Below are positions 9,338-36,097 of a stretch of 38,955 bases of DNA, piece by piece. Position numbers and translations under genes: made by a program. Origin of the DNA: Thiotrichaceae bacterium. Lineage in GTDB: Bacteria; Pseudomonadota; Gammaproteobacteria; Thiotrichales; Thiotrichaceae. The notes beneath the pieces are model-generated. The model searched no databases. It saw only the letters and a program-made list of their open reading frames with translations, and was not told the DNA's origin. The stretch spans positions 1 through 38,955 of the forward strand of contig WFWY01000143.1 of assembly GCA_015490895.1 (NCBI GenBank). The letters are read 5' to 3'. Position 1 is the first letter of the stretch. Every line of letters starts with the position of its first letter.

Positions 9338-10741
9338 ATGAAACCTTTTTTCATTGTCATCACTTTTATGTTGATTGTTTTGCCCTGGCAGCCAGCGCTC
9401 GCATGGCGTATGGAGGCTGATAAAGTAACAATCAATGCAACAACAGGTGGTGTGATTACACGTATTAATTTTCGCCAGACTTATGCCCAGGTACCTCTGG
9501 TGTTCATATTACCCACCAACCGCGGTGCAAACCCCGCTGCACTGCGACTTGAAAATATTACAACAGCTGGTTTTGATGTCTACATGGTCGAGCCAGATGG
9601 TAACGATGGCCCCCATATTGATTTGCTTGATGTGCCCTATATTGCGATAGAACCGGGTGATTATACCCTGCTGGACGGGACGCGTTTTTACGCCGGTACG
9701 CTGGATACCCTGCGCTACCGTTCAAAGCTGCTTGGTGGTGCGAGCTGGGATTCGGTTGCGCTCACCGGCTTTACAACCACTCCCATTGTACTGGCCCAGA
9801 TTCAAACCATGAATAATGAATCAAATAACCCGCCCGCCAATGTGTCACAGCCCTGGATGACAGCGACGGTCAGTAATGTTCTGTCGAGTGGTTTTGATAT
9901 CGCACTGGAGCGTTCGGAAACCACAACAGGCACCTTGAACCAGGTTGAGACTATCGCCTATCTGGTACTGGAAAGTGGCACAAGCAACACCAGTTTTGTG
10001 GATAATCTGGCTAAGACTATTGAGCTGGAAACGATTCGCTCCGCCGATAACATTCGCGGCTGGGATAATTCAGCTACCGGTTATACGGTTTCATTTTCAA
10101 AGAGCTATCCAGATCCCATTGCGGTTGCGACCAAAAATACCCGAGACGGCGGGGATGGTGGCTGGTTTCGGCGTACGGGTATCAGTGCAGGCAGTATGGC
10201 ATTAGTGGTCGATGAAGATATCGCCACAGACAGTGAGCGTAGCCATACGACAGAAGTTGCGGGGGTGCTGGTTTTTTCAGAGCCTTTTGATTTGAACCTG
10301 GCCTTGCCGGAAATTAACCTCAAAAAAACGTCAACAGTCGTTTTTGACCCTTCCAACGATATTTCCAATCCCAAGCGTATTCCAGGTTCCATTGTAGAGT
10401 TTAATATAGAAGCACTGAATACAGGTGAGGGGACGACAGACCCTGACAAGCTATACATCACAGATACCATCCCGGCCAATTTAAAGCTCTGTGTGCAGGA
10501 TATTAATGTTTGCCGGGCGCCCCGCTTTGAGGATAGTGATGCCGATAGCGGGCTAACGCTCAATGTATTTGAATATTCGAATGATGATGGGCAAACTTTT
10601 ACCTATTCACCCACAGCAGATGCACAGGGGTATGATACTGCCGTAACGACCCTGCGGATGAAACTCAATGGCCGCTTTAGCGCTAATAATGGCAGCAACT
10701 CTCCGGATTTTAACCTGTATCTGCAAATGGGTGTGTTGTAG
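9338..10741 (+). CDS. Secreted protein with H-type-lectin-like repeats and a DUF11-like domain
   Basis: This 467-residue protein has a clear Sec signal peptide (MKPFFIVITFMLIVLPWQPALA). Three related beta-rich segments follow, at roughly residues 23-115, 120-225 and 230-325. Each has the pattern of an aromatic residue, then P-x-V, then GF-x-V, and segments 2 and 3 end in E-x-(I/V)-A-(Y/G). This resembles H-type lectin folds. The C-terminal part (about 335-430) reads PGSIVEFNIEALNTGEGTTD then ITDTIPANL, the pattern of DUF11/surface-repeat domains. A surface or extracellular carbohydrate-binding role is inferred. There is no sorting signal or C-terminal anchor. It is divergent from pbpC and has no obvious operon partner. 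Confidence 0.75.
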   Translation: MKPFFIVITFMLIVLPWQPALAWRMEADKVTINATTGGVITRINFRQTYAQVPLVFILPTNRGANPAALRLENITTAGFDVYMVEPDGNDGPHIDLLDVPYIAIEPGDYTLLDGTRFYAGTLDTLRYRSKLLGGASWDSVALTGFTTTPIVLAQIQTMNNESNNPPANVSQPWMTATVSNVLSSGFDIALERSETTTGTLNQVETIAYLVLESGTSNTSFVDNLAKTIELETIRSADNIRGWDNSATGYTVSFSKSYPDPIAVATKNTRDGGDGGWFRRTGISAGSMALVVDEDIATDSERSHTTEVAGVLVFSEPFDLNLALPEINLKKTSTVVFDPSNDISNPKRIPGSIVEFNIEALNTGEGTTDPDKLYITDTIPANLKLCVQDINVCRAPRFEDSDADSGLTLNVFEYSNDDGQTFTYSPTADAQGYDTAVTTLRMKLNGRFSANNGSNSPDFNLYLQMGVL

Positions 10742-11144: not shown

Positions 11145-11996
11145 TTAGTTTGATAAAAGGTTCGGGTTTATTACTAAGTTTCTTACCCCGTGACCATGAT
11201 CTTCATTAAAAACATTTCCTTTACACCATTCACCCACAGTATTGATGTTTACTTTTAATACTTTAGGGCGAACACTCCATGAAACCTGGAGCGGTGAAGC
11301 TATTTCGTTGTAGCCAGGCCCTGTTGTTGACCCCTCATAGCGTACTGGTGTACCTGTATTATCGGGTATATTCAAGGCTTGATGAAAACCATTCTTCTTA
11401 CCATGTTCTACAAGTGTTTTAAAATCTAAAGCGCTATCATCATTGGTTACTACATAGACTTGAGCTTCAACACGAAGCTGGGGATTTTTTATTGACTCGC
11501 TCAGACATGCGCCCAATGTGGGTCCAGGTTTTACTTTTGCAGTGGAGTGTACATAATGCACCTCAATAGTATCACCAGACTGAAGAGAGCCATGATCACT
11601 TGCACATATCTCTTGCTTTACAGGAGTTAGCTCCGCCTCACTCAACGTTCCTGCATATTTAAAACCGCTGTTGTAACCTTTTCCATCTCCGTTACCAGCA
11701 TATTTTACAAACTCTCCACCTTTATGCTCTGCATTTTTATGAAAATGTATGTTACATAAATTCATTTCTGCATAGGGCGGTGCGCTATTGAACTCAAGGG
11801 TATTATCCCCCTCTATAATATCTATATCTCTCGGGGATTGAGGTCCAAAACCTTTATCTTCTGTAGTTTTTGCAAGTGTTGCGCGTTGCTGGGCGATTAC
11901 TTCATCAGAGACAGCCTCTGTATGTCCAGTGCTACTTTTAGCGTAAACTTGTGTTCCCAGAGTGAGCAGCATTGGGATTATTAACAGTTTTTTCAT
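11145..11996 (-). CDS. Delta-class carbonic anhydrase, periplasmic
   Basis: This enzyme would interconvert CO2 and bicarbonate in the periplasm. A Sec signal peptide ends near residue 19 (MKKLLIIPMLLTLGTQVYA). The core motif NLCNIHFHKNAEHKGGEF places His84 and His86 as likely zinc ligands, with Glu90 and His91 nearby. A downstream segment DTIEVHYVHST (His147 and His150) supplies the expected third ligand. This pattern matches the delta carbonic anhydrases first described in diatoms and later found in bacteria. Cys81, Cys131, Cys164 and a Cys near 258 could form disulfides. A ribosome-binding site (AAAGGAAA) lies before the ATG. The gene is AT-rich relative to its neighbours and sits between related repeats, consistent with acquisition by transfer. 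It has no operon partner. Confidence 0.8.
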   Translation of the reverse strand: MKKLLIIPMLLTLGTQVYAKSSTGHTEAVSDEVIAQQRATLAKTTEDKGFGPQSPRDIDIIEGDNTLEFNSAPPYAEMNLCNIHFHKNAEHKGGEFVKYAGNGDGKGYNSGFKYAGTLSEAELTPVKQEICASDHGSLQSGDTIEVHYVHSTAKVKPGPTLGACLSESIKNPQLRVEAQVYVVTNDDSALDFKTLVEHGKKNGFHQALNIPDNTGTPVRYEGSTTGPGYNEIASPLQVSWSVRPKVLKVNINTVGEWCKGNVFNEDHGHGVRNLVINPNLLSN

Positions 11997-22728: not shown

Positions 22729-23466
22729 ATGAAGGCCAGTATTATCGTACCGACCTATAATCGTGCAGACTATTTTTCTCGACTGTATCACTGTTTTCAG
22801 CATCAGACGCATCCAGACTGCGAGCTACTGGTTTATGATGATAGCCCGCAGCGCTCGAGCTTTTTTGATGATAAGGCGAAAGACGCTGTTCGTTATTACT
22901 ATTCAGAGACACGACTGACAATCGGGGAAAAGCGGAATTTTCTGATCGGGCAGGCTCGTGGTGAAGTCATCGTACACTTTGATGACGATGACTACTATGC
23001 ACCTCACTATGTTGAGTTTATGTTGCGCCTGCTGGGTGATGAGTATGCGCTTGCCAAACTGTCTGGCTGGTTCCTGTACCAGGTAGAAAACCACTTTCTG
23101 GGCTACTGGGATACAGCACACGATGACGAAAAATGTTATCTGATAGAGCCGTCTTCCCCGGTTCATCCCGTCTACCTGGAAGGGAAAGCATCATCACTGA
23201 CGGGGTTCGGCTTTTCCTATGTCTATAAAAAGTCAGTCTGTGAGCAGGTGCCGTTCCAGGCGATTAACTTTGGTGAAGATAACCAGTTTATACTAGATAG
23301 CCTGGAACAGGGCTACCGGCTTCACTATGTTGATGATCCTGAGGGGCTGGTATTACATATTATTCACCTGTCCAATACCTCCAGAGCGTTTCCGCAATAC
23401 AGGCTTCCGCCACATCTGGTCAAAAGCCTGTTTGGAGCCGGGATAGCGGATTACATCAAGACTTGA
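22729..23466 (+). CDS. Glycosyltransferase family 2 protein
   Basis: This 245-residue soluble GT-A enzyme has the nucleotide-binding start ASIIVPTYNRADYFSRLYHC, ELLVYDDS and the metal-binding VIVHFDDDDYYAPHYVEF with an acidic run near residues 84-88. GEDNQFILDSLEQGY provides the likely catalytic acidic residues. Such enzymes transfer a sugar from a nucleotide donor in the cytoplasm. There is no membrane segment. GAGG lies 10 bases before the ATG. It stands about 500 bases before the exporter operon on the same strand and probably belongs to the same polysaccharide locus. Confidence 0.9.
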   Translation: MKASIIVPTYNRADYFSRLYHCFQHQTHPDCELLVYDDSPQRSSFFDDKAKDAVRYYYSETRLTIGEKRNFLIGQARGEVIVHFDDDDYYAPHYVEFMLRLLGDEYALAKLSGWFLYQVENHFLGYWDTAHDDEKCYLIEPSSPVHPVYLEGKASSLTGFGFSYVYKKSVCEQVPFQAINFGEDNQFILDSLEQGYRLHYVDDPEGLVLHIIHLSNTSRAFPQYRLPPHLVKSLFGAGIADYIKT

Positions 23467-23962: not shown

Positions 23963-24748
23963 TTGAGTATTCTGAATGCCTTGAAAATACAGTCTCGTGT
24001 GATTCACGCTCTGATTCTGAGAGAAACCCGCACACGGTTTGACAGAAATAAACTCGGGTATCTGTGGGCCTTATTCGAGCCGATAACCTACGTGCTGATA
24101 CTGATAGCTGTGTTTTCCGCCATGGGTCGATCCTCCCCTATTGGTGACAGCCAGTCGTTGCCGCTCTTTTTCCTGTCGGGTCTGGTGCCCTGGCTACTGT
24201 TTGCCAACACGGTGAATAAAGTGATGGAAGGCGTAAATGCCAACAAGGGGCTGCTGACCTATACCCAGGTAACGCCGTTTGATGTGCTGGTTTCACGCGC
24301 ACTGCTGGAATTTGCCACCATGGTCGTGGTCTTGATGATCCTGCTGTTTTTGTTTGCCTGGGCGGGTTATTACCAGCCGATTGAATCCTTTAACGATATG
24401 TTGCTGGGGCTGTTGGCTATCTGGCTATTTGCAGTGGGTATTGGCTTTATCAACGCCAGTATCAAGTTGTATCTGCCCTCCTATGGGCAGACATATGCCG
24501 CCATACAACGTCCTTTCTTTTTTGTATCAGGCATCTTTTTTACCGCTGAGAGCCTGCCACCTACGTTGCGTGAGATTGCCCTCTACAACCCGATACTGCA
24601 TGCGGTGGAATGGTGCCGCAGTGCTATTTTCACGAACTACGATGCCCGTTACCTGGATAAGGACTATTTGCTCACGTTTGTGGTTGTATTGCTCAGTATT
24701 GGCCTGGCCTTTGAACGTACCACGCGAAAATTTGCACGGCAGGGATAA
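23963..24748 (+). CDS. kpsM: Capsular polysaccharide ABC exporter permease (KpsM/Wzm type)
   Basis: This 261-residue membrane protein has about six helices and belongs to the ABC-2 polysaccharide exporter family. RETRTRFDRNKLGYLWALFE near residue 20 is the hallmark of KpsM/CtrC-type permeases and is followed by LFFLSGLVPWLLFANTV. The start is a TTG with no in-frame ATG before residue 53, and the N-terminus it gives aligns well with KpsM. It moves lipid-linked polysaccharide across the inner membrane together with the ATPase encoded 34 bases downstream. Confidence 0.92.
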   Translation: MSILNALKIQSRVIHALILRETRTRFDRNKLGYLWALFEPITYVLILIAVFSAMGRSSPIGDSQSLPLFFLSGLVPWLLFANTVNKVMEGVNANKGLLTYTQVTPFDVLVSRALLEFATMVVVLMILLFLFAWAGYYQPIESFNDMLLGLLAIWLFAVGIGFINASIKLYLPSYGQTYAAIQRPFFFVSGIFFTAESLPPTLREIALYNPILHAVEWCRSAIFTNYDARYLDKDYLLTFVVVLLSIGLAFERTTRKFARQG

Positions 24749-24782: not shown

Positions 24783-25430
24783 ATGATTGAATTTAACCGT
24801 GTTTCCAAAAGCTACCCCATGAAGCATGGGCGTAAACGGATTTTGCAGGACTTCAGTTTTACTTTTCCCGAAGGAAAAAACATCGGCATCCTGGGAAGGA
24901 ATGGCACCGGAAAGTCCACCATTATGCGTTTAATCGCAGGCTCTGAATTCCCGGATTCCGGTGCCATTACCCGACGGGGAAAACTCTCCTGGCCACTGGG
25001 TTTTGCGGGCGGCTTCAGCCCCAGCTTGACGGGTGAAGAAAATCTGCGCTTTATCTGTCGAATTTACGATGCAGACATTCCCACCGTTACGCGTTTTGTG
25101 GAGGATTTTTCAGAGCTGGGTGACTTCTTTTATGAGCCTATTCGCAATTATTCCAGCGGGATGCGCTCCCGGCTTTCTTTTGGACTCAGTATGGCGATTG
25201 ATTTTGATGTCATTCTGATTGATGAAATACTGGGAGTAGGTGATCAGCATTTCCAGAAAAAATGCCGTCTTAAAGTCGAAGAAAAAACAGCCAGTTCCAA
25301 TATTATTATGGTATCGCACAGCATGGAAACCATCCGCAATTTTTGTGATATTGCTATGGTACTGGCAGATGAAAAGCTCACAATCTATAACGATGTGGAA
25401 GCGGCTATCACCGTGTATTCCCAGAGCTGA
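24783..25430 (+). CDS. kpsT: Capsular polysaccharide ABC exporter ATPase (KpsT type)
   Basis: The start is ATG 24783, with GGGAAG upstream; the open frame continues further upstream but overlaps the permease gene. The 215-residue product has Walker A GRNGTGKST (residues 38-46), the signature NYSSGMRSRLSFGLSMA, Walker B VILIDEILGVGD and the switch region IIMVSHSMETIRNFC. It is the short form without the C-terminal carbohydrate-binding domain of Wzt, which points to KpsT-type group 2 capsule export. It is nine bases from the next gene. Confidence 0.94.
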   Translation: MIEFNRVSKSYPMKHGRKRILQDFSFTFPEGKNIGILGRNGTGKSTIMRLIAGSEFPDSGAITRRGKLSWPLGFAGGFSPSLTGEENLRFICRIYDADIPTVTRFVEDFSELGDFFYEPIRNYSSGMRSRLSFGLSMAIDFDVILIDEILGVGDQHFQKKCRLKVEEKTASSNIIMVSHSMETIRNFCDIAMVLADEKLTIYNDVEAAITVYSQS

Positions 25431-25439
25431 GACGAACGG

Positions 25440-26537
25440 ATGAAAGTATTAAAACTACCCGTTTCCTTCCTCGTTTTTGTGTTGTTACCAATTTTGGTAG
25501 CCGGTCTTTATTATGCCTTTTTTGCTTCGGGTCAATATGTTGTAGAGACCAAGTACATTATTGAAGGGCACAAAACCTCCCAGTCCGATATGTTGGGTGC
25601 GCTGGCAGGTATCAATGGCACAGCCTCTTCCCCGTCGGCCAAAGACTCCTACATTGCCCAGGAATACATCTGGTCAGCCGAATTGCTAAACAAGATAGAC
25701 CGGGAGCTGGGCATCCGCAAACACTATTCAGACCGTCGTTATGATGGCTGGGCACGCTTACCAGAGGACGCATCCCTGGCAGATTTTCTGGAGTACTGGA
25801 AGGCGATGATTGATATCCGCTATGACGGCACCTCGGGTATTACAACACTCTCGGTAACGGCCTTTAGCGCAGAGGATGCCTTGCGTATCGCCAGGCGGCT
25901 GCTTGAAGAAGCCGAGCAGCATGTGAACAAGCTAACGGAACGGGTTCGTCATGACAAGCTCAGCTTTGCCAAAAACGAATTGCAAGAAGCCGAACAACGC
26001 CTCATTAATGCCCGTGCCGCGATGATTCGCTTTAGAAGCCAGCAAAAGGATATTGACCCGGAGAAAACCACCGTCTCAAAACTGGAGATTGTGGCAGAAC
26101 TGGAAAGCCAGCTGGCAACAGCAGAAGCCGAGCTGGCGAATATGGCTACCTATATGAAGGCGGATTCCATCAAGTTAGGTGCGTTACGCAACAAGGTGAG
26201 TTCACTCAAACGCCAGATTCATATCGAACGAAAACGCTGGAGCAACAACGTGGATGAAACCCGAGCCCTGAATAACCGCATTGCTGAATATGAAATCCTG
26301 CTGGCAAAAAAGACGATTGCCGAAAAGTTTTACGAATCTGCACTGGCATCACTGGAAAGCGCACGCCTGAGTACCATGCAGCAACAGCAATACCTGGAAG
26401 TGATTGCCGCCCCCTATAAACCTGTTGAGGCAGAAAAACCTTATGTATTGAGCAATATGCTGTCCGTCATTCTGGGGAGCTTTTTATTCTGGGTCATTGG
26501 CAGCCTGATTATTTCTGCGGTTCGGGATCATGTGTAG
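25440..26537 (+). CDS. kpsE: Capsule export inner-membrane/periplasmic protein (KpsE-like, PCP family)
   Basis: The 365-residue protein has a membrane helix at each end (about residues 6-30 and 340-360), enclosing a periplasmic domain with a long coiled coil (about 160-320, rich in Glu, Ala, Leu and Gln). This is the layout of KpsE/CtrB/BexC polysaccharide co-polymerase proteins. These bridge the ABC exporter to an outer-membrane channel. The first part GQYVVETKYIIEGH resembles the Wzz-like N-terminal beta segment. No outer-membrane partner (KpsD or Wza type) is present in the window. Confidence 0.88.
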   Translation: MKVLKLPVSFLVFVLLPILVAGLYYAFFASGQYVVETKYIIEGHKTSQSDMLGALAGINGTASSPSAKDSYIAQEYIWSAELLNKIDRELGIRKHYSDRRYDGWARLPEDASLADFLEYWKAMIDIRYDGTSGITTLSVTAFSAEDALRIARRLLEEAEQHVNKLTERVRHDKLSFAKNELQEAEQRLINARAAMIRFRSQQKDIDPEKTTVSKLEIVAELESQLATAEAELANMATYMKADSIKLGALRNKVSSLKRQIHIERKRWSNNVDETRALNNRIAEYEILLAKKTIAEKFYESALASLESARLSTMQQQQYLEVIAAPYKPVEAEKPYVLSNMLSVILGSFLFWVIGSLIISAVRDHV

Positions 26538-26565: not shown

Positions 26566-29500
26566 ATGAAAGAATGTATTGTCATACTGGGTATGCACCG
26601 CTCCGGAACATCGGTATTAACAGGGTTGATATCCCTGTTTGGTGGCTATATTGGCGCTGATGCTATGTCGGCGACGGAAGCGAACCCCATGGGATACTTT
26701 GAAAATAACAAAGTTTATACACTGAATGAGAAGATATTAAAGGCGCACCAGACATCCTGGGATACGGTTTCTTTCTCAGCCCAAAGGATTCAGCCCGAGC
26801 ACTTCAGGGCACTGGTTGCAGAAGCCAGGCAAGTGATTGATAGCGAGTTTCGCTATGTCAATACATTGCTGATTAAAGACCCCCGCATGTGCCTGCTATT
26901 CCCGATATGGGAGCAGGCATTGCAGGAGATGAATATTCGTGTGAAACCTGTTCTGGTTTATCGTTCACCGCTGGAAGTGGCGTTTTCCTTGCAACACCGG
27001 GATGAGCTGGATATCGAAAGGGGTTTATTGGTATGGGCTCACTATCTTTTTAGCTCAGAGTCTTTTAGCCGTCAGTATCCGGAGCGCCTGGTTATTGAAT
27101 ATGACAAGGACTTTCGGCAGCTGACAACACTGCTTGAAACACTGAGTCAGTTTCTTGGCGTGGAAGTCACAGACAGCATTGCTGAACGAGCTGTTCAAAT
27201 GTATTCGCCATCACTCAAACACCATACGATTGAGCTGGGGAACATTTCCGGTGACCTTCCGGCTTATTTAAAAGACCTGATTGCACTACTGTTACAGTCT
27301 GGCCTGAACTCGACGGAGAAGCTGGACTCACTGGCGGCAGACTTTTATACCACCTCCCGTTTCTATCGGCATAACACTACCCGTTACCGGGCGCTGAAGA
27401 AAGAACAACAGGCATTGCAGGTCTCGCTGCAATCCATGCAAGCACAGCTCGCTGAAAAAGAAGCCGCACTTGAAGCCTGTAAAAATAAAAAGAAAGCCGT
27501 AGAAAAGCAGCGGGATTTAAGGGACAAAAAGTTGCAGACCTATGAGCAAGCCCTGAAACAGGAAAAGCGCAAGCAGCAAGCGATGCAACAATCCTTGCAG
27601 GCCAGGCTGCGCTCGCGTGAAAAGGAATACCAGAGCAACAGGGAAGCGCTCGAATCCATTATCCGAAAAAACAAAACCGATTACCTGCTGTCGAGATCGT
27701 CGATAGAATCTGTGATGAGTAGCAAGCAGCAAATGATCGCAACCATTGAAGCCACACTGGAAAGAAAAAGTCAGGATCTGGTTAAACAGGCACAGCGCTA
27801 CCAGACGGCCGAAGCGGTTTTTTACCGGGTGTTACGAGAACCACACTGGTGTAGAAAGCTCAAGCGCATACAGCCGGAAAATACCCACTATAAAAACAAG
27901 CAGCGGTTACTGCCCCTTGCCCGGCAGGCAACCCGGCAGTACCTGAAGGACAAGGCAGTTATCGTTGAGTCAGGGCTGTTTTCTTCCTTTTACTATCTGA
28001 CGCACTACCCGGATGTCTTTCAGGCAGGTGTAGACCCGGTCAACCATTACTGTCAATACGGGTGGAAAGAAGGGCGTAACCCCAGTCCGTATTTTAATAC
28101 CCGGCGTTATCTGACACAGTACCGCGATGTTGAAAAGGCAGGCATGAATCCACTGCTGCATTACCTTCGATATGGCAAGGGAGAAGGGCGCTCCCCCTGC
28201 GGAGAAGAGATACCACCAGAACGCCAGACAGCCTGGTTGTCTGGCGCAAAGAAAGAGTCACAGGCAGGATCAGGGCAGACGCTACCCGTACCTGATACCG
28301 CCTGTCAACGCCTGAAACAGGTCGTGCAGCAACAGGCGCTACCCGTTCTGCAGCGCGACAATAATGCAATCCTGGTATCCATTATTGTCCTGAACCGGGA
28401 TGGAGCAGGGCACCTCAAGACCCTGATACCAGCACTGTATGAACATACCCAGGGCATACGTTATGAACTCATTGTGGTTGATAATGCATCAACCGACAAC
28501 TCGGTTTCCTATCTAGAAAACAGCACCTATGATATGCCGCTGAAACTGATACGCAATAGCGTGAATGAAACCTTTTCCAGGGGGAATAATCAAGGTGCCC
28601 GGCAAGCCAGGGGGAAATACCTGGTCTTGTTGAATAATGATGTAGAGCCGTTGCCGGGCTGGTTACACCATTTGCTGCATTGTGCCGAAAAACAGGAAAA
28701 GACAGGCGCTGTGGGGTCCCGTCTGGTGTACCCTTTCAAGGCCTCGTTTGAAAACAGCTGTAGCGTGCAACATGCCGGTATCGCGTTTCGGGACGAAGTA
28801 GGCTTTTTTCGTCCATACAACCAGGGTAACGGGCGCTCAGGAAGCTCCCCCCATGTGATGAACAATGGAAGAAAAGCAGCGGTTACAGCGGCCTGTTTAT
28901 TGGTGCCCAAAGCGGTTTACCAGCAAGTAGGGGGGCTGGATGAAGGTTACAACTACGGCTTTGAAGATGTGGACTTTGGCCTGAAACTCATACAGGCGGG
29001 CTACCACAATTATTACTGTGCGGAGTCGGTACTCTTTCATTATGAATTTGGCACCCAGGAGAAAAACGACCGCGAAGAAGTCAAACAGCGCCGCCTGAAA
29101 AACACCGAACGGTTTCGCTATAAATGGTTTTCAGTCATCAAGGGGAATTACTGGAAGGAAAAGCTCTTTAACGGCTCGAGCCTGTATGCTGAAACTCCCC
29201 TGAAAGTTGCACTGGCTATTACCGACTACGGACCAAATGTCGCGGCGGGAGACTATTTTACCGCGCAGGAACTGGCTACCGCACTGGAAGTGCTGGGCTG
29301 GTCAGTAACCTATCTGAGCCGGGTGAAGCAGGAGTGGTACCAGATCGGGGAAGAGGTGGATGTCCTGATTAGCCTGATTGATGCCTATGACCTTAACAAA
29401 ATACCAAAAAGAAACAAGCGCCTGTACCGTATAGCATGGGCCAGGAACTGGTTCGACCGCTGGTGCAACAACCCTTCTTTTGAACACTATGACCAGGTTT

Positions 29501-31062
29501 TCGCCTCCAGCCATCTGGCGTGTGACTATATTCGTCAACACAGCAGACAAGAAGCCATGCTGTTACCCATTGCCTCGAATCCGGAGCGCTTTGCCAGGGC
29601 AAGCGGGTGCAAAAATGCACAACAGTATCAGAGTGATATCTGCTTCACCGGGAATTACTGGAGCTCACCCCGTGATATCATGGAGGCATTGAGCGAGCAA
29701 ACCCTGAAAAAATACCGCTTTCACGTTTACGGTGCGAACTGGGAAAAATTCAAGAAATTCAAACCCTACCACAAAGGGTTTTTGGCCTATGGCGAGATCC
29801 CCTGCGTTTATCAGCAGACCAGAATCGTCATAGATGACGCAGTGAAGCATATCACCAAGCCCTATGGTTCGGTCAATAGTCGGGTATTTGATGCACTGAT
29901 GTCGGGAGCCCTGGTGATCACCAACGGCGTGGAAGGCTCCAAAGATCTGTTCCAGGGCGAATTGCCCTATTATGAAACCCCCCGGCAGCTAGATCAGTTA
30001 CTGGACTTCTACCTGGGAAACGAAGCTGCGCGTCAGCAAAAAATCGGTCAGTTGAGGCGTATAATCCTTGGCAAGCATACCTATCATCATCGTGCCAAAG
30101 CCATCCGGCAGGCCCTGATGAAGCGTTTTATTGCCCGCTCAATCGCCATCAAAATCCCGGCACCTAACTGGCAAGGTGCTCACAGCTGGGGTGATTATCA
30201 CATCGCCGTATTATTGAAACAACAGCTGGAAAAACTGGGCTACTCGGTATTACTGCAAGTGTTGCCAGAGTGGGATAACGAAGCAGGCATGGCCTGTGAT
30301 ATCGCCCTGGTTTTACGGGGTCTGAGTCGTTATAACGTCAAGCCACACCAGCTGAACCTGATGTGGAATATCTCCCATCCGGATGCAGTCACGCTGGAAG
30401 AATACGAAGAATACGACCAGGTATTTATTGCCTCAACCTGCTGGGCGGAACACATTGCAGGGCAAGTCTCCGTACCCGTCAGCAGCCTGCTGCAATGCAC
30501 GGATCCGGAGCGTTTTCGCAGACCGGATGCCCGACAAAGAAAAGCGTATCGAAAATCCCTGCTGTTTGTGGGTAACTCCCGAAATGTCTTCAGAAAAGTA
30601 CTTAACGACCTGTTACCTACCCACCTTGACCTGTCCGTATATGGGCGCAACTGGAATAAGCTTATCCCGCTGCGTTATATCAAGGGTGAGCATATCCCCA
30701 ATGATGAGCTATACCGGTATTACGGCTCGGCAGATATCCTCCTGAATGACCACTGGGACGACATGCGCGAGCAGGGGTTTGTTTCCAACCGCTTGTTTGA
30801 CGGCCTGGCCTGCGGTGCATTTATTGTGACCGACCAGGTTAAAGCCATGGGAGAACTCAAACAGTTTGTACAAACTTATGAAACTGCCGATGAACTACAG
30901 GAGCTTATTCAGTATTATCTGGAACACCCCGAAGAACGGCGAAAAAAAGCCAGGCAGGGCATGGAGTACGTTCGGCAGCAGCACACCTTCAAGCAGCGGG
31001 CGGAGGCCATATCCCGCGTGATCGAGCAACTACTCAGCTGCCGCCAGACCCGCCTGTGCTAG
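26566..31062 (+). CDS. Multidomain sulfotransferase–glycosyltransferase fusion (GT2 plus two CgeB-like modules)
   Basis: This 1498-residue protein has several modules. Residues 1-260: a sulfotransferase-like P-loop domain, with GMHRSGTSVLTG at 9-20 as the 5'-phosphosulfate loop and VYRSPLEVAFSLQHR near 131 as the 3'-phosphate motif. 276-420: charged coiled coil. 463-540: two copies of the YP-D-V...AG-x-(D/N)-P-x-x-HY...G-x-x-EGR-x-P repeat often seen beside glycosyltransferases. 600-850: a GT2 domain with SIIVLNRDGAG, LLNNDVEPLPGW and YGFEDVDFGLKL. 875-1185 and 1188-1490: two CgeB/GT1_2-like modules, with SRVFDALMSGALVITN and NRLFDGLACGAFIVTD. No membrane segment is seen. It could both build and sulfate one polymer. 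It follows the KpsE-like gene by 28 bases. Confidence 0.88.
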   Translation: MKECIVILGMHRSGTSVLTGLISLFGGYIGADAMSATEANPMGYFENNKVYTLNEKILKAHQTSWDTVSFSAQRIQPEHFRALVAEARQVIDSEFRYVNTLLIKDPRMCLLFPIWEQALQEMNIRVKPVLVYRSPLEVAFSLQHRDELDIERGLLVWAHYLFSSESFSRQYPERLVIEYDKDFRQLTTLLETLSQFLGVEVTDSIAERAVQMYSPSLKHHTIELGNISGDLPAYLKDLIALLLQSGLNSTEKLDSLAADFYTTSRFYRHNTTRYRALKKEQQALQVSLQSMQAQLAEKEAALEACKNKKKAVEKQRDLRDKKLQTYEQALKQEKRKQQAMQQSLQARLRSREKEYQSNREALESIIRKNKTDYLLSRSSIESVMSSKQQMIATIEATLERKSQDLVKQAQRYQTAEAVFYRVLREPHWCRKLKRIQPENTHYKNKQRLLPLARQATRQYLKDKAVIVESGLFSSFYYLTHYPDVFQAGVDPVNHYCQYGWKEGRNPSPYFNTRRYLTQYRDVEKAGMNPLLHYLRYGKGEGRSPCGEEIPPERQTAWLSGAKKESQAGSGQTLPVPDTACQRLKQVVQQQALPVLQRDNNAILVSIIVLNRDGAGHLKTLIPALYEHTQGIRYELIVVDNASTDNSVSYLENSTYDMPLKLIRNSVNETFSRGNNQGARQARGKYLVLLNNDVEPLPGWLHHLLHCAEKQEKTGAVGSRLVYPFKASFENSCSVQHAGIAFRDEVGFFRPYNQGNGRSGSSPHVMNNGRKAAVTAACLLVPKAVYQQVGGLDEGYNYGFEDVDFGLKLIQAGYHNYYCAESVLFHYEFGTQEKNDREEVKQRRLKNTERFRYKWFSVIKGNYWKEKLFNGSSLYAETPLKVALAITDYGPNVAAGDYFTAQELATALEVLGWSVTYLSRVKQEWYQIGEEVDVLISLIDAYDLNKIPKRNKRLYRIAWARNWFDRWCNNPSFEHYDQVFASSHLACDYIRQHSRQEAMLLPIASNPERFARASGCKNAQQYQSDICFTGNYWSSPRDIMEALSEQTLKKYRFHVYGANWEKFKKFKPYHKGFLAYGEIPCVYQQTRIVIDDAVKHITKPYGSVNSRVFDALMSGALVITNGVEGSKDLFQGELPYYETPRQLDQLLDFYLGNEAARQQKIGQLRRIILGKHTYHHRAKAIRQALMKRFIARSIAIKIPAPNWQGAHSWGDYHIAVLLKQQLEKLGYSVLLQVLPEWDNEAGMACDIALVLRGLSRYNVKPHQLNLMWNISHPDAVTLEEYEEYDQVFIASTCWAEHIAGQVSVPVSSLLQCTDPERFRRPDARQRKAYRKSLLFVGNSRNVFRKVLNDLLPTHLDLSVYGRNWNKLIPLRYIKGEHIPNDELYRYYGSADILLNDHWDDMREQGFVSNRLFDGLACGAFIVTDQVKAMGELKQFVQTYETADELQELIQYYLEHPEERRKKARQGMEYVRQQHTFKQRAEAISRVIEQLLSCRQTRLC

Positions 31063-31072
31063 AGGCTTGCCG

Positions 31073-31960
31073 ATGACAGAACGCATGCTGAGTATCGTCA
31101 TTCCGGTTTACAACCGGCCGGTATTGCTGGCGCATCTGCTGGTGGAACTGGCGACGGCTATCACCGCAGGCGCCTATACGCACCAGGTTGAAATGATTGT
31201 AATTGATGATGCCTCCGAAAAAGCTCTTGCACTCCCCCCCTTGCCGGTCACCGTAAAACTGCTACGCAATAGCCAGCAACAGGGAGCGCCATATTCCCGC
31301 TGCAAAGGCTTGCAGCAGACAAGCGGCCGCTTTGTGCATTTCCATGACTCGGACGATAGCATGGCAGCCGGCTGGCTGGAGGCAATCATGCAGGAGCTGG
31401 CGGATAACCCACAGACCGACCTCCTGGTCACCGGGCGCTATGACAAGACCCGTGACATTAGCCGTTATCGCTACCAGCGTTTTTTTCACCAAAATGCACA
31501 CGCACCGCAAAGAATCAGAAAGCGGCTAGTGTATCGCAACTGCCTTGGCCCCCTGGGAGGCGTAACATTCTCTCGTCAGCTGCTGGAGAAAATCGAATGC
31601 TTAAACCTGTCATCCTGTCAGGACTGGCAGATGTATTACCACGCACTGGCACATGGCAAACGGTTACGCAGTCGCCCCGATATCTGTTTCCTGTTCAACC
31701 AGCAAGGTAGCGACCGCATATCGGCACATGCCAGAAAAAAACTGCTCGGTCATCTGCAGCTGGCACGAATAACAGCCAGGCAATCGGTTTTCGGGCGACA
31801 TATCCGCCTTTTTTACCTGCAAACATGCCACCAACCTGTTGACAGGCAAGGTGGCCTGATACAGCGGTTCTATCGACAACACCGCCTGTCAATCCTCGGG
31901 GTATATCTGCTCGCCAGCCTGGTCTGGAGAATGAGCCCCTATCTCCCGCCAAAAAAGTGA
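31073..31960 (+). CDS. Glycosyltransferase family 2 protein
   Basis: The start is ATG 31073, with AGAGG 7 bases upstream; a TTG at 31067 is also in frame. The 295-residue enzyme shows the GT2 start LSIVIPVYNRPVLLAHLLVE, MIVIDDAS, and the metal site FVHFHDSDDSMAAGWLEAIM. CQDWQMYYHALAHGKRL matches the catalytic acceptor region. Ten bases separate it from the multidomain gene, so they are co-transcribed. Its last residues (PPKK) and TGA stop overlap the start of a repeat-element fragment at 31953, so the original C-terminus may have been altered. Confidence 0.9.
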   Translation: MTERMLSIVIPVYNRPVLLAHLLVELATAITAGAYTHQVEMIVIDDASEKALALPPLPVTVKLLRNSQQQGAPYSRCKGLQQTSGRFVHFHDSDDSMAAGWLEAIMQELADNPQTDLLVTGRYDKTRDISRYRYQRFFHQNAHAPQRIRKRLVYRNCLGPLGGVTFSRQLLEKIECLNLSSCQDWQMYYHALAHGKRLRSRPDICFLFNQQGSDRISAHARKKLLGHLQLARITARQSVFGRHIRLFYLQTCHQPVDRQGGLIQRFYRQHRLSILGVYLLASLVWRMSPYLPPKK

Positions 31961-32339: not shown

Positions 32340-33419
32340 ATGGAAAATTACACCTTTGTTTCGGTTGATGCGCTTCTGGATAGCCGTACCAGAGCCCTGT
32401 TAGATGCGGCAACCTATGCGCGGCGTTATCCGCTTTATACCAATATAAGCCGGTTTGACAAGCCCGGAGTGGCGTTGCTATGGCGGCAGGACAGGCAGAC
32501 CGTTGCACCTTCCTACATTCTGGAGCTGGCACAGGCTAAAGTGGTTCATCAGGGTGCGGTAATCACGTCTGATGACCGGGTTATTGATGCCTCTGTGTTT
32601 GGTTTTAGCGGAATGGATGGCAGTATTTCCTGTACTGAAACAGGTGTGTCGTATACGGGAGCGGGGTGTACAACAGCGGTTGACGCAGCGGTTGTGATCA
32701 AGAAAATAGGGGCGATTAACTATGGGCACTGGCTGGTCGAGATGTTACCCAAGGTGTTTTTTGCGTATCAGCAGCCGGCATTAGAAGGCGTGCCTATTAT
32801 TATCCAGAGAACCACAGGCAACCTTAAGCGGGCGATTTTTGACAGCCTTGAAGCCATTGGTTTTCCGCTTGAAAATGTCATTGAAACCGGTAATGACATG
32901 CTGTGCGCTGATACCCTGTTTTATCCAACTCCGGTGACCTGGCATCCGGTGACCAAGGCGCCTGCTATTATTCCCTTGTTTGAACAGTTGGCTGCACCGT
33001 ATCCGCAGGAGCGACAGGAGATTTTATTTATTTCACGTGCGGATACCGACCGCAGAAGGTTGATGAATGAGAAAGCCGTCATAGAGAGCTTGCGGCGGCG
33101 TTGGGGTTCGGTGCGTGTGCTCTTTCCTGCGAGCATGACGTTTCAGGAGCAGGTACGGACGTTTGCCAATGCCCGGTGTATTGTGGGGCCGATGGGGGCT
33201 GGGCTGGTCAACAGCCTGTTTGCCCCGGCTGATGTCCCGGTATTGGTATTGTGCAGTGAGCAGGTGCCAGGGCATTTTTTCTGGGATATTGCCTGTCTTA
33301 GAAAGACACCCTACTACCATTTGTTTGGTTCTGCGGTCGCACCGACTGTTATGGCAGATTATTTGATTGATCCTGGTGAGCTGGAAGCGTGCCTGGATGC
33401 GATGGCTGGGGTGTTGTAA
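32340..33419 (+). CDS. Glycosyltransferase family 61 (DUF563) protein
   Basis: This 359-residue protein has the GT61 signature: AINYGHWLVEMLPKVFFAYQ near residue 127, ILFISRADTDRRRLMNE near 225, and the C-terminal GPMGAGLVNSLFAPADVPVL near 282. Family members transfer pentoses or hexosamines to glycans, and bacterial ones occur in capsule and exopolysaccharide loci. It has no signal or membrane segment, so it acts in the cytoplasm. It leads a set of five co-directional genes with gaps of about 50-200 bases. Confidence 0.85.
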   Translation: MENYTFVSVDALLDSRTRALLDAATYARRYPLYTNISRFDKPGVALLWRQDRQTVAPSYILELAQAKVVHQGAVITSDDRVIDASVFGFSGMDGSISCTETGVSYTGAGCTTAVDAAVVIKKIGAINYGHWLVEMLPKVFFAYQQPALEGVPIIIQRTTGNLKRAIFDSLEAIGFPLENVIETGNDMLCADTLFYPTPVTWHPVTKAPAIIPLFEQLAAPYPQERQEILFISRADTDRRRLMNEKAVIESLRRRWGSVRVLFPASMTFQEQVRTFANARCIVGPMGAGLVNSLFAPADVPVLVLCSEQVPGHFFWDIACLRKTPYYHLFGSAVAPTVMADYLIDPGELEACLDAMAGVL

Positions 33420-33510: not shown

Positions 33511-34665
33511 ATGAAGACAACACCTCCACCCATTCGTATTGGTATTGCAGGAACCGGCTATATATCGCGCGGTTTTAATCAGCTGTTACTGCAACAGCGT
33601 GCATTTATAGCGACCAGAGTACTGACTCGCCGCCCGCTTGACGCTTGCCGTGAATTTCCCCGTCAGGATCTGCTGACGCATTCCCTGACGGATTTGGTCG
33701 ATCATGCGGATGTGATTGTGGAATGTAGTGGTGATCCGCTGCATGCGGCGGAAGTGACGCAACAGGCATTTGCTGCGGGATTGCCAGTTGTGACAATGAA
33801 TACCGAGTTTCATATTACCTGTGGCTCGTGGTTTGTTGACAAGGGCTTGTTAACCGAGGCGGAAGGGGATCAGCCGGGATGTCTGGCAGCACTGGATGAA
33901 AATGCCCGGACAATGGGGTTCAGGCCGCTGGTCTATGGCAATGTCAAAGGCTTTCAGAACCTGAATCCCGGGCTGGAGGAGATGCAGTACTGGTCAAGGA
34001 AGCAGGGGATTAGTCTGCCAATGGTGATTGCCTCTACAGATGGTACCAAGGTACAGGCCGAGCAGGTACTGGTGGCCAATGGGCTGGGGGCGGATATTGC
34101 CCAGGAAGGTTTATTGGCCTATCCATCCACCTGTCTGGAGGATGAGGTTCAGCGTCTGGCAGTAGTGGCCAGTCGTCGTGGCAGTGCTATTAGTGATTTT
34201 GTGATTCATGCTACGGCGCCTACCCGGGTGTTTCTTGTTGCCGAGCATCATGCAGCACAGCAGGCGGCACTGGCTTACCTGAAACTGGGTGATGGCCCCT
34301 ACTATACCTTGAGTCAAAATAGTGTGTTATGTCATCTGGAAATACTTAAGAGCGTTAAACGTATTGTTACACTGGGAACAGTGTTACTAAATAATGGTAG
34401 ACGCCCTCAAACCGGTCTTGCAGCTATCGCCAAAAAGGATTTGCCTGCAGGAACTGTCATCCCCCACGGTATTGGCAGCTTTGAGTTACGTGGCGTGGCG
34501 GTCAGGATAGCGGAGCGCCCTGATCATGTGCCGATAGGGCTCCTGTCTGATGTGGTGCTCAGCCAGGCCGTCGAAAAAGGCGAAATCGTGTCTTTCCATC
34601 ATATTGACATTCAGCCGTCTCTGGCGCTTGAAGCCTGGCTGGATATTCGTCAACGCGAAGCGTGA
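33511..34665 (+). CDS. NAD(P)-binding oxidoreductase with C-terminal SAF domain
   Basis: This 384-residue protein begins with a Rossmann dinucleotide fold (IRIGIAGTGYISRGFN, residues 8-23), then DVIVECSGDPLHAAEVTQQA and VVTMNTEFHITCGSW. The arrangement resembles homoserine-dehydrogenase-like proteins. Residues from about 307 form a SAF domain (AKKDLPAGTVIPHGIGSFEL), the fold of NeuB and antifreeze-like domains. This Rossmann-SAF combination is known in polysaccharide and natural-product loci, but its reaction is poorly defined. A role in oxidising or reducing a sugar or small-molecule precursor is inference. It lies between the GT61 and methyltransferase genes. Confidence 0.8.
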   Translation: MKTTPPPIRIGIAGTGYISRGFNQLLLQQRAFIATRVLTRRPLDACREFPRQDLLTHSLTDLVDHADVIVECSGDPLHAAEVTQQAFAAGLPVVTMNTEFHITCGSWFVDKGLLTEAEGDQPGCLAALDENARTMGFRPLVYGNVKGFQNLNPGLEEMQYWSRKQGISLPMVIASTDGTKVQAEQVLVANGLGADIAQEGLLAYPSTCLEDEVQRLAVVASRRGSAISDFVIHATAPTRVFLVAEHHAAQQAALAYLKLGDGPYYTLSQNSVLCHLEILKSVKRIVTLGTVLLNNGRRPQTGLAAIAKKDLPAGTVIPHGIGSFELRGVAVRIAERPDHVPIGLLSDVVLSQAVEKGEIVSFHHIDIQPSLALEAWLDIRQREA

Positions 34666-34867
34666 ACTCACTGTACCGGCAAGCTGCTGGTTGCTGACAG
34701 ATCATGGATGATGATGCCTGTTGCGGCTGCCTGGATAGTGGGAACACCCATACAGGTATGGCTAATGACAGCAATAGCAACAGCAACAATAAGCTCTCTA
34801 CATTGCTGGAGTGCTCGCACTGATCAGTGTCACAGGGCGGTGTCTCTGTCTGTTTTGACGGCTTCCT

Positions 34868-36097
34868 GTGAAACATAAGCAGCAGCATACGACGCTTGCC
34901 TGCCGCATTTGTGGTGACAGGGCATTCCAGGTGCTTGATCTGGGGTTTTTACCCCTGGCGAATGGTTTGCTGAACCCGGCAGAGCGTGACTGTGATGTCT
35001 TTCCGGCTGTTTTGCATGTGTGTTCGCATTGTGCAACCGCGCAGCTCGGGTATTGCCCGGATGCTTCTGTCTTGTATGCGGATTACAAGTATGTCACACC
35101 GCAAAGCGAGATGCTGTCACGGCATTATCAACAGCTTGTTGCCTACCTGAAAGCGCATCACGGTTTGAGTAAAAGCAGCTCGGTGCTGGAAATTGGCAGT
35201 AATATCGGTCACTTTCTGCAATATCTTCAACCTTGTGTGGGTCGTCTTCTGGGTGTGGATCCCGCCAAAAATATAGTGCAACAGGCCAATGCAGCGGGAA
35301 TACCTACCCTGTGCCGGTATTTTGATAAAACGGTTGCCAGGGAAATACGTGCGGGTCATGGCGAGGTGGATTTTATCTTTGCCAGGCATTGTTTCGCGCA
35401 TAATGAAAAACCCTGGAAAATGTTGCAGGGCGTCGATACCCTGTTAAGTCCGGACGGGGTTTTTGTGATCGAAAATGCCTACTTTCCGGATACGGTGGCA
35501 CGTTGTGAGTTTGATCAGATTTACCATGAGCATATGTATTATTTCGGTATGCGTGCTATTCATTATCTGGCTCAGCAATATGGTTTTGTTGTGACTGATT
35601 GTCTGCACAGTGATATTCATGGTGGCACCATGCTGTATATCCTGCAACGCTCAGGGACAGCATCGGCACGGGTCAGGCAGGCGCTACGGGCGGAAAAAGA
35701 CATGCACCGGGCCTCTTTTTACAAGACGTTTGTGAGAAAAACCAATGAGAACAAGGCCACTTTACAGGCTTTGCTGCAACGGCTAGGCCGGGAGGGCAAG
35801 ACGATTCATGTGTATGGTGCATCTGCCAAGTCAACCACGTTGCTCAATTATTTTGGTATTGATACAAGGATTACGCCACTGGCTGTTGACTCTACAAGCT
35901 GCAAGCAGGGCATGGTGATTCCGGTGGTCAATATTCCTATTATTAGTGAAGAGGAGGCCTGTTTGAACCCGCCGGACTATTATTTGCTGACAATCTGGAA
36001 CTACCGGGATGAAATTATTGAAAAGGTACGTTCCGCGGGGAATTATGACAGTTTATTTATTATTCCCCATCCCGAAGTTCAAATTGTGACTAAATAG
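34868..36097 (+). CDS. SAM-dependent C-methyltransferase (three-domain sugar-methyltransferase type)
   Basis: This 409-residue protein starts with GTG. An N-terminal zinc-binding domain has CRICGD (Cys12, Cys15) and CSHCATAQLG near residues 51-54. The central domain has VLEIGSNIGHFL near 107 as the S-adenosylmethionine site, and HGGTMLYIL near 254. The C-terminal domain reads IHVYGASAKSTTLLNYFGI and is followed by YYLLTIWNYRDEI. This three-part layout is that of TylCIII/NovU-like enzymes that C-methylate nucleotide-activated keto-sugars. A branched-sugar product is therefore likely, but the substrate cannot be read from the sequence. Confidence 0.88.
   Translation: MKHKQQHTTLACRICGDRAFQVLDLGFLPLANGLLNPAERDCDVFPAVLHVCSHCATAQLGYCPDASVLYADYKYVTPQSEMLSRHYQQLVAYLKAHHGLSKSSSVLEIGSNIGHFLQYLQPCVGRLLGVDPAKNIVQQANAAGIPTLCRYFDKTVAREIRAGHGEVDFIFARHCFAHNEKPWKMLQGVDTLLSPDGVFVIENAYFPDTVARCEFDQIYHEHMYYFGMRAIHYLAQQYGFVVTDCLHSDIHGGTMLYILQRSGTASARVRQALRAEKDMHRASFYKTFVRKTNENKATLQALLQRLGREGKTIHVYGASAKSTTLLNYFGIDTRITPLAVDSTSCKQGMVIPVVNIPIISEEEACLNPPDYYLLTIWNYRDEIIEKVRSAGNYDSLFIIPHPEVQIVTK

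Follow-up and report, generated by a model that had tools for sequence, protein, structure and literature searches.

The locus examined here raises the question of why a sulfotransferase should be built into the same polypeptide as the glycosyltransferases (GTs) of an exported polysaccharide, and what such an enzyme would sulfate. The window, i.e. the whole stretch of DNA analysed, comprises 38,955 nucleotides (positions 1 to 38,955 of contig WFWY01000143.1, assembly GCA_015490895.1, forward strand) from a Thiotrichaceae bacterium whose genome assembly (2.78 Mb in 171 contigs) was rated 95% complete. An open reading frame (ORF) at 26566-31062 on the + strand starts with ATG, contains no internal stops and encodes 1498 residues. 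In an earlier note made from the letters of the sequence it had been described as one chain that carries a sulfotransferase, a GT2 and two CgeB-like modules and could both synthesize and sulfate a repeating unit; the ORF, the Pfam matches, a family profile and structure models agree on this single chain. Judged from sequence and models, the protein is probably an active sulfotransferase-polymerase for an exported polysaccharide. By analogy with known chain terminators there is about an even chance that its sulfate caps the end of the chain, and this reading is favoured over the sulfation of each repeat. The parts of the ORF are as follows.

26566..31062, + strand: whole ORF, consisting of sulfotransferase, helical rod, YPDV repeats, GT2, CgeB-like and CgeB-like modules (Pfam and ORF reading).
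26566..27336, + strand: sulfotransferase head, residues 1-257, with the 3'-phosphoadenosine 5'-phosphosulfate (PAPS) loop GMHRSGTS (R12), K104 and the 3' site R133/S141.
27313..27927, + strand: residues 250-454, proposed as a rod or ruler: a long charged segment, helix in the AlphaFold model (heptad test not significant).
27931..28233, + strand: residues 456-556, a pair of YPDV-type repeats modelled as small helical units.
28357..29145, + strand: GT2 (GT-A) module, residues 598-860 (Pfam PF00535 and model).
29188..30120, + strand: first CgeB-like (GT-B) module, residues 875-1185 (Pfam and model).
30133..31050, + strand: second CgeB-like (GT-B) module, residues 1190-1495 (Pfam and model).

As the head is weak in Pfam, a family profile and a predicted fold were used for its assignment instead. 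The profile, built from 14 relatives (window included), matches solved sulfotransferases (5x2b, 4e-8; 1cjm, 1.1e-7), and in it R133 and S141 align with the 3'-site Arg and Ser of solved sulfotransferases including 5x2b. All 14 head domains have K104, W115, R133, S141 and W157, and the RSGTS loop, N40, G43 and E46 are at least 90% conserved among them; R12, G14, K104, R133 and S141 are invariant in the 32 large ORFs described below. Across 49 heads, RSGT was found in 46 and a KDPR-type pattern in 45. The signatures of PAPS dependence given in PMC11625862 (in the sections used, as for all papers cited here) are RxG in the PAPS loop (PF13469 family) and, for the 3' site, RxxxDxxxS; by sequence, the R-S-G of the window loop (R12-x-G14 in GMHRSGTS) and its RSPLEVAFS, with Glu for the Asp of RxxxDxxxS, fit both. 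An AlphaFold model of the head region [five sequences, mean predicted local distance difference test score (pLDDT) 72, mostly >80 over residues 1-210] gave the best fold matches to the tyrosylprotein sulfotransferases TPST1/2 with 3'-phosphoadenosine 5'-phosphate (PAP) (Z 15.4, root-mean-square deviation 4.6, 217 aligned), followed by the sulfotransferase domains of OLS (4gox, Z 14.3) and CurM (4gbm, Z 13.9). By profile, motifs and predicted fold, the N-terminal domain is a PAPS-type sulfotransferase, which bears out the P-loop sulfotransferase of the earlier note.

The head recurs well beyond the window. In a sample of 369 Gammaproteobacteria genomes (head family matches counted at E<=1e-15) the family was found in 50 genomes with 64 matches, 28 of them, from 25 genomes, in open frames 800 or more residues long and 36 in shorter frames. 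The idea that the arrangement is unusual in the sense of a one-off was thus overturned: 25 of the 369 genomes carry the head family in an ORF of at least 800 residues. The 32 large ORFs (at least 600 residues) comprise these 28 matches plus four from same-family genomes. The 17 short ORFs comprise 16 of the 36 (fetched from among the stronger and longer ones, with 20 not included) and the weak L219 (279 residues), which was found in a fetched region. Some of the large and short ORFs had themselves contributed rows to the profile by which they were found. The head is N-terminal in 28 of the 32 large ORFs, and a long, charged stretch poor in Pro and Gly lies within 100 residues after it in 26. 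A helical-looking stretch starting before residue 500 was present in 26 of the 32 versus 12 of 57 control frames, as judged by a composition rule of our own rather than by a coiled-coil predictor, and the controls (large stop-to-stop frames lacking the head but drawn from the same regions) are loose ones. GT2 (PF00535) was matched in 29 and Glyco_trans_1_4 in 21 of the large ORFs. On this sequence evidence the layout of sulfotransferase head, rod and GT modules is widespread among the genomes sampled.

The sulfate donor has a predicted source in the same genome. One ATP sulfurylase-adenosine 5'-phosphosulfate (APS) kinase of 574 residues, i.e. a PAPS synthase, is encoded in the genome on a different contig from the window ORF. 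The earlier note had named a lack of PAPS-binding geometry or of a PAPS pathway as grounds for abandoning its proposal; since both PAPS-site motifs are present with an agreeing fold, and the PAPS synthase is in the genome, neither of these two testable outcomes came about. No PF01507 (CysH/CysD-type) gene was found in the window's genome; this family covers PAPS/APS reductase and, presumably, CysD. No other sulfotransferase was found in the genome by PF13469, PF00685 or profile A1 (E<=1e-15), PF03567 and others not having been searched, and PF13469 at E<=0.001 gave zero matches in the genome, window head included. APS kinase was found in 44 of the 50 Gammaproteobacteria genomes with the head family versus 178 of 319 without it (Fisher p 4.5e-6) and, among genomes without PF01507, in 19 of 20 versus 83 of 195 (p 3.2e-6), in tests which ignore shared ancestry. 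Where the head sits in a frame of 800 residues or more (25 genomes), APS kinase was present in 23, the exceptions being G191 and G380. PF01507 was absent in nine of 30 genomes checked. The PAPS synthase gene (locus L103, 2239-6476, on contig 84 of the window's own genome) lies less than 1 kb from an IS66-family transposase.

Between head and polymerase lies the proposed rod, of which residues 261-430 contain 44% Glu, Lys, Arg or Gln, one Pro and zero Gly; it was modelled as helix by AlphaFold (pLDDT 37-88). The two YPDV-type repeats listed in the earlier note are indeed present (YPDV at residue 481, YRDV at residue 519). Sequence searches with them gave nothing in Pfam at E<=10 or in the PDB at E<=1. 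Repeats of this type are more numerous in relatives (seen at L183, L198-L200, L004, L006 and L016) and occur in GT proteins both with and without the sulfotransferase head.

The C-terminal half passes the Pfam cut-offs with a GT2 domain (PF00535, 6.4e-19) and two Glyco_trans_1_2 stretches (PF13524, 1.3e-52 for the protein as a whole). A model of residues 595-1498 built from 16 sequences (pLDDT 89.4, predicted template modelling score 0.83) shows a GT-A fold resembling GalNAc-T2 (Z 24.4) and two GT-B modules, which resemble PimA (Z 26.2) and sucrose-phosphate synthase (Z 25.4). The motifs NND, EDVD and NDHWDDM are among those conserved in 16 of 16 aligned rows. The GT2-CgeB-CgeB core was found in Methanosphaera, Lachnospiraceae, Rubrobacter, Fulvivirga and others, with 38-53% identity in aligned rows, and beyond the window a single ORF combines all three modules at 17 loci (module presence being judged by our own thresholds). 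Two of the 17 share both head and core with the window: L003, from an Alcanivoracaceae metagenome-assembled genome (MAG), with its N-terminus cut by the contig end, and L009 (Fulvivirga), which lacks the YPDV repeats. The window's head is also joined to other GT cores. Uniqueness of the window architecture, considered at one stage, was dropped in view of L003, L009 and these other cores. At E<=1e-40 a full-length profile match to GT2-CgeB-CgeB was obtained in the window genome only among the 369 Gammaproteobacteria. The closest relatives of the head and YPDV repeats are same-family proteins that carry other GTs (47-59%); those of GT2 and the first CgeB-like module are in L003, archaea, Sulfurimonas and Firmicutes, and those of the second CgeB-like module are separate proteins in Cocleimonas and a same-genus MAG. 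As the halves have different nearest relatives, the protein looks like a product of module shuffling. In one Dehalococcoidia MAG (L020, 2-4051) a Methyltransf_24 domain and a coil-type stretch precede a GT2-CgeB-CgeB core. The Methanosphaera archaeon (L007, 2133-6731) has the full core with a polysaccharide-type ATP-binding cassette (ABC) permease and ATPase right behind it. No useful PDB match was obtained for L018 and L021, and no relative of the window protein was found in the viral contigs searched.

Export genes lie directly upstream of the ORF on the same strand, in the following setting.

22729..23466, + strand: GT2, upstream of the exporter genes (Pfam match).
23963..24748, + strand: KpsM-like ABC-2 permease (ABC2_membrane above the Pfam cut-off; NCBIfam KpsM below cut-off).
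24783..25430, + strand: KpsT-like ATPase, 215 residues (ABC_tran only, without Wzt_C).
25440..26537, + strand: KpsE-like inner-membrane export protein (TIGR01010, below cut-off).
31067..31960, + strand: separate GT2, starting 4 bp downstream of the ORF.
32340..33419, + strand: GT61-family glycosyltransferase (Pfam match).

The Kps names are those of the best NCBIfam matches, all of which are below the model cut-offs (KpsM 152/300 bits, KpsE 291/437.5); ABC2_membrane and ABC_tran pass the Pfam cut-offs in the exporter genes, the KpsM-, KpsT- and KpsE-like trio is present together, and the best matches of permease and KpsE are of Kps/Bex types. The gaps are 9 bp (KpsT-KpsE), 28 bp (KpsE-ORF, so that the ORF does stand directly behind a KpsM/T/E-like exporter, as had been noted) and 4 bp (ORF-next GT2). 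These short gaps on one strand make it likely that the KpsM/T/E-like genes, the ORF and the next GT2 form an operon. A search for KpsS/KpsC (Kps proteins of the 3-deoxy-D-manno-oct-2-ulosonic acid, Kdo, linker) gave one PF05159 protein of 427 residues and no second in the assembly rated 95% complete.

Similar neighbours were sought around the 49 ORFs (32 large, 17 short) by single-sequence search with the window's own KpsM/T/E, which misses distant ones. A KpsM/T/E-like gene was found in the fetched region of 19; in all of these the nearest such gene is upstream, in 17 of them on the strand of the ORF, and 11 of the 49 ORFs start at most 200 bp behind such a gene on the same strand. The use of PF01061 as a neighbour test was abandoned as uninformative (30 of 30 genomes matched among the matches listed). 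Wzt_C, the domain that reads chain ends, is above its cut-off in the ATPases near L173 (6.4e-29), L204 (9.6e-25) and L184 (1.8e-9) and just below it in that of L211 (28.0 of 30.4 bits). Short sulfotransferase ORFs (340-465 residues) lie directly behind Wzt/KpsT-type ATPases at L204, L206, L207, L208 and L211; by this gene order they stand where a separate chain terminator could act.

The following mechanism is proposed. The three GT modules would elongate a lipid-linked chain at the inner membrane while the head, held off by the helical rod, would transfer sulfate from PAPS to the growing non-reducing end as soon as the length of the chain brings this end within reach. The end sulfate would block further addition, so that the rod would set the chain length, and the finished chain would leave through KpsMTE. 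A widespread class of polymerase-terminators with a sulfate cap, single polypeptides that unite sulfotransferase head, helical ruler and GT polymerase, is put forward more tentatively, at somewhat less than even likelihood; this same proposal takes in the head-only proteins directly behind wzt. If it is true, PAPS supply and rod length set the length of the polysaccharide, and the window pairs a sulfate cap with a Kps-type ATPase that has no cap-reading domain, which is a new combination.

Of the alternatives, the one that survives best, while still rather unlikely, is that the head sulfates a sugar of each repeat during growth to give a polyanionic sulfated capsule. Sulfated Kps-exported capsules are known from Vibrio KMM 8419 (PMC11641403) and Cobetia marina KMM 1449 (PMC11766843), with the sulfate on the repeat; this precedent counts against a cap, and the adjoining KpsMTE-like genes, the KpsT without an end-reading domain and the PAPS synthase would all suit decoration. 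A long rod between head and polymerase would, however, be needless for it, the domain order is that of terminators, Wzt_C occurs beside some relatives and a methyltransferase takes the place of the head in L020. The cap is preferred on account of the terminator order, this methyltransferase swap, the gene order in Aeromonas salmonicida and the matriglycan precedent (the last two are discussed below). What had been suggested earlier, synthesis and sulfation of a repeating unit in one assembly, therefore holds as far as a sulfotransferase, three GT modules and a KpsMTE-like exporter in an operon-like row are concerned; the sulfation of every repeat is not supported as put forward, and a single sulfate at the chain end (the layout of O7/O12) is suggested by the anatomy no less strongly.

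A number of further results weigh against the capped chain. The window KpsT has ABC_tran only and no end-reading Wzt_C, which was also absent in 11 of 15 ATPases scanned beside relatives, and 30 of the 49 regions (up to 20 kb, single-sequence search) contained no KpsM/T/E-like gene. According to the sections of PMC11231755 used, the ABC-exported capsule of Haemophilus influenzae b is without a terminating residue, and a reading domain is missing from the Klebsiella O1/O2 exporter, chain length there being set by export coupling; by analogy, the window system could likewise couple extension to export. The heptad test (against shuffles, p 0.08 for residues 276-345, 0.99 for 345-412 and 0.52 for 276-412) gave no support for a regular coiled coil in the rod, so that the coiled coil of the earlier note stands as a long charged stretch modelled as helix but not as an established coiled coil, and the two YPDV repeats are interposed between rod and polymerase. 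Among 10 N-terminal extensions of CgeB-bearing GT proteins that were scanned, L020, whose N-terminus is at a contig end, was the only one with a modifying enzyme, so that the argument from interchangeable heads rests on one protein; GT2 was found in L082 and weak coil-type matches in three (L018, L008 and one of L017), and the remaining five gave no match. In the window protein the head falls below the Pfam cut-offs (PF00685, 17.8 bits with a cut-off of 22; PF13469, 13.9 with a cut-off of 27), and the whole-protein Pfam listing at E<=0.001 contained no sulfotransferase domain, weak matches appearing at relaxed thresholds only. This shortfall is a detection limit rather than a defining trait, membership resting on motifs, profile and fold: PF13469 at E<=1 matches 11 of the 14 alignment members, window included, and the relatives L009 (37.8 bits) and L204 (33.2 bits) pass its cut-off. 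The strict RxPxxVxxS pattern was found in just 38 of the 49 heads, nucleotide kinases are also among the fold matches of the head at lower scores (adenylate kinase, Z 10.5), and six of the 50 genomes with the head family gave no APS kinase match at the threshold used.

It is improbable that the head sulfates some other acceptor, such as a primer, the lipid-carrier end or a side product, with the fusion providing membrane proximity only. In its favour, 36 of the 64 matches are in frames shorter than 800 residues and 12 of the 17 short ORFs examined have no KpsM/T/E-like gene in their region; against this, 28 of the 64 are in large frames, GT2 is present in 29 of the 32 large ORFs and a polymer-related acceptor is simpler. 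That the sulfotransferase fold is inactive, or a mere binding or scaffold domain, is just as improbable: the head is below the Pfam cut-offs, its activity is a prediction and P-loop kinases have part of the fold in common, but the cofactor-site residues are invariant across 14 and 32 sequences, APS kinase is associated with the family across genomes and the PAPS synthase has been retained without PF01507 in the window's genome.

Some features of the surroundings are recorded for completeness. Downstream of the GT61 gene follow an oxidoreductase, a C-methyltransferase, a lysyl-phosphatidylglycerol-synthase-like gene and a split cytochrome P450. The P450 (37229-38613, +) is broken into two ORFs that lie in different frames (134 and 325 residues, matching P450 positions 35-123 and 138-440), by a frameshift or an assembly error to judge from the sequence. 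The pair of DRL-type oxidoreductase and C-methyltransferase (33511-36097) recurs at 2176-4688 of L026, the Kps-like locus of a same-genus MAG, which has KpsETM-like genes, a GT2 and a separate CgeB protein and shares two accessory genes with the window; no sulfotransferase was found in L026 or among four matches from its genome. Elsewhere in the window, a strong match to delta carbonic anhydrase (PF10563, 1.4e-81) was obtained at 11145-11996 (-), in a bacterium, and an H-type lectin domain match (PF09458, 1.2e-6) in a 467-residue protein at 9338-10741 (+).

The closest parallels to the favoured end cap are found among the O antigens exported by ABC transporters which are described in the sections of PMC11231755 used here. 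In these systems the chain-ending enzyme is placed at the far end of a coiled-coil ruler, the group added by the terminators is methyl, methyl-phosphate or Kdo, and a domain of the export ATPase recognizes the capped chains. In Klebsiella pneumoniae O7, ORF6 has a methyltransferase-kinase, a coiled coil and two GT2 modules in one chain; the window protein resembles it in its N-terminal modifying enzyme, long helical spacer, C-terminal GT modules and ABC exporter. A modifying enzyme separated from the GT modules by a long spacer is found in the window and, by the composition rule, in 26 of the 32 large ORFs. Unlike O7 ORF6, the window protein has a sulfotransferase head, YPDV repeats and a GT2 with two CgeB-like GT-B modules, its ATPase has no end-reading domain and its role in termination is a proposal. 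Klebsiella O12 WbbB unites a Kdo transferase and the polymerase in one polypeptide, as the window protein would unite polymerization and termination, whereas the window cap would be a sulfate from PAPS instead of Kdo and the GT families differ. Because Wzt_C was looked for in the window ATPase and is absent, the window protein is not classed as a terminator of the WbdD/WbbB type and possibly works like one.

With Vibrio KMM 8419 and Cobetia KMM 1449 the window's genome shares Kps-type export, PAPS genes and sulfotransferase genes; in the sections of those papers used, sulfotransferase and GT genes are listed apart, unlike in the window, and the PAPS synthase of the window's genome is on another contig. 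TPST1/2 and the polyketide-type sulfotransferase domains of OLS and CurM have the predicted fold of the head, but share about 15-20% identity with it in alignments and have different partners and presumably a different acceptor. A chain-ending sulfate, as proposed here, has a precedent in animals, where sulfate added by the HNK-1 sulfotransferase ends matriglycan chains (PMC10955480); unlike the window head, this animal enzyme is apart from the polymerase. In the wbsalmo cluster of A. salmonicida (PMC4483657) the order is wzt, a sulfotransferase-domain gene (216 residues, role unknown) and wbbB, so that a sulfotransferase-domain protein again stands between export ATPase and multi-domain GT polymerase, although as a separate gene. 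Its authors report no such residue in the O antigen in the sections used; one sulfate per chain could escape bulk analysis. The GT2-CgeB-CgeB proteins of Methanosphaera, Lachnospiraceae and Rubrobacter have the same three-GT core, most of them without the head.

Sulfated Kps-exported capsules and polymerase-terminator proteins are thus already known. What looks new is that a sulfotransferase head is fused to a helical rod and GT polymerase: no sulfotransferase-GT fusion or bacterial sulfate terminator was recognized in the literature searched (by title and start of abstract, with few subscription journals). If the proposal is true, a sulfate terminator is a new chemical cap that ties polysaccharide length to PAPS, and it could explain a sulfotransferase gene beside an O-antigen exporter where, as in the sections on A. 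salmonicida used, no sulfate was found. A possible use lies in making sulfated polysaccharides of set length. As head, rod and polymerase are in one expressible chain, sulfate per chain versus sulfate per repeat is directly testable.

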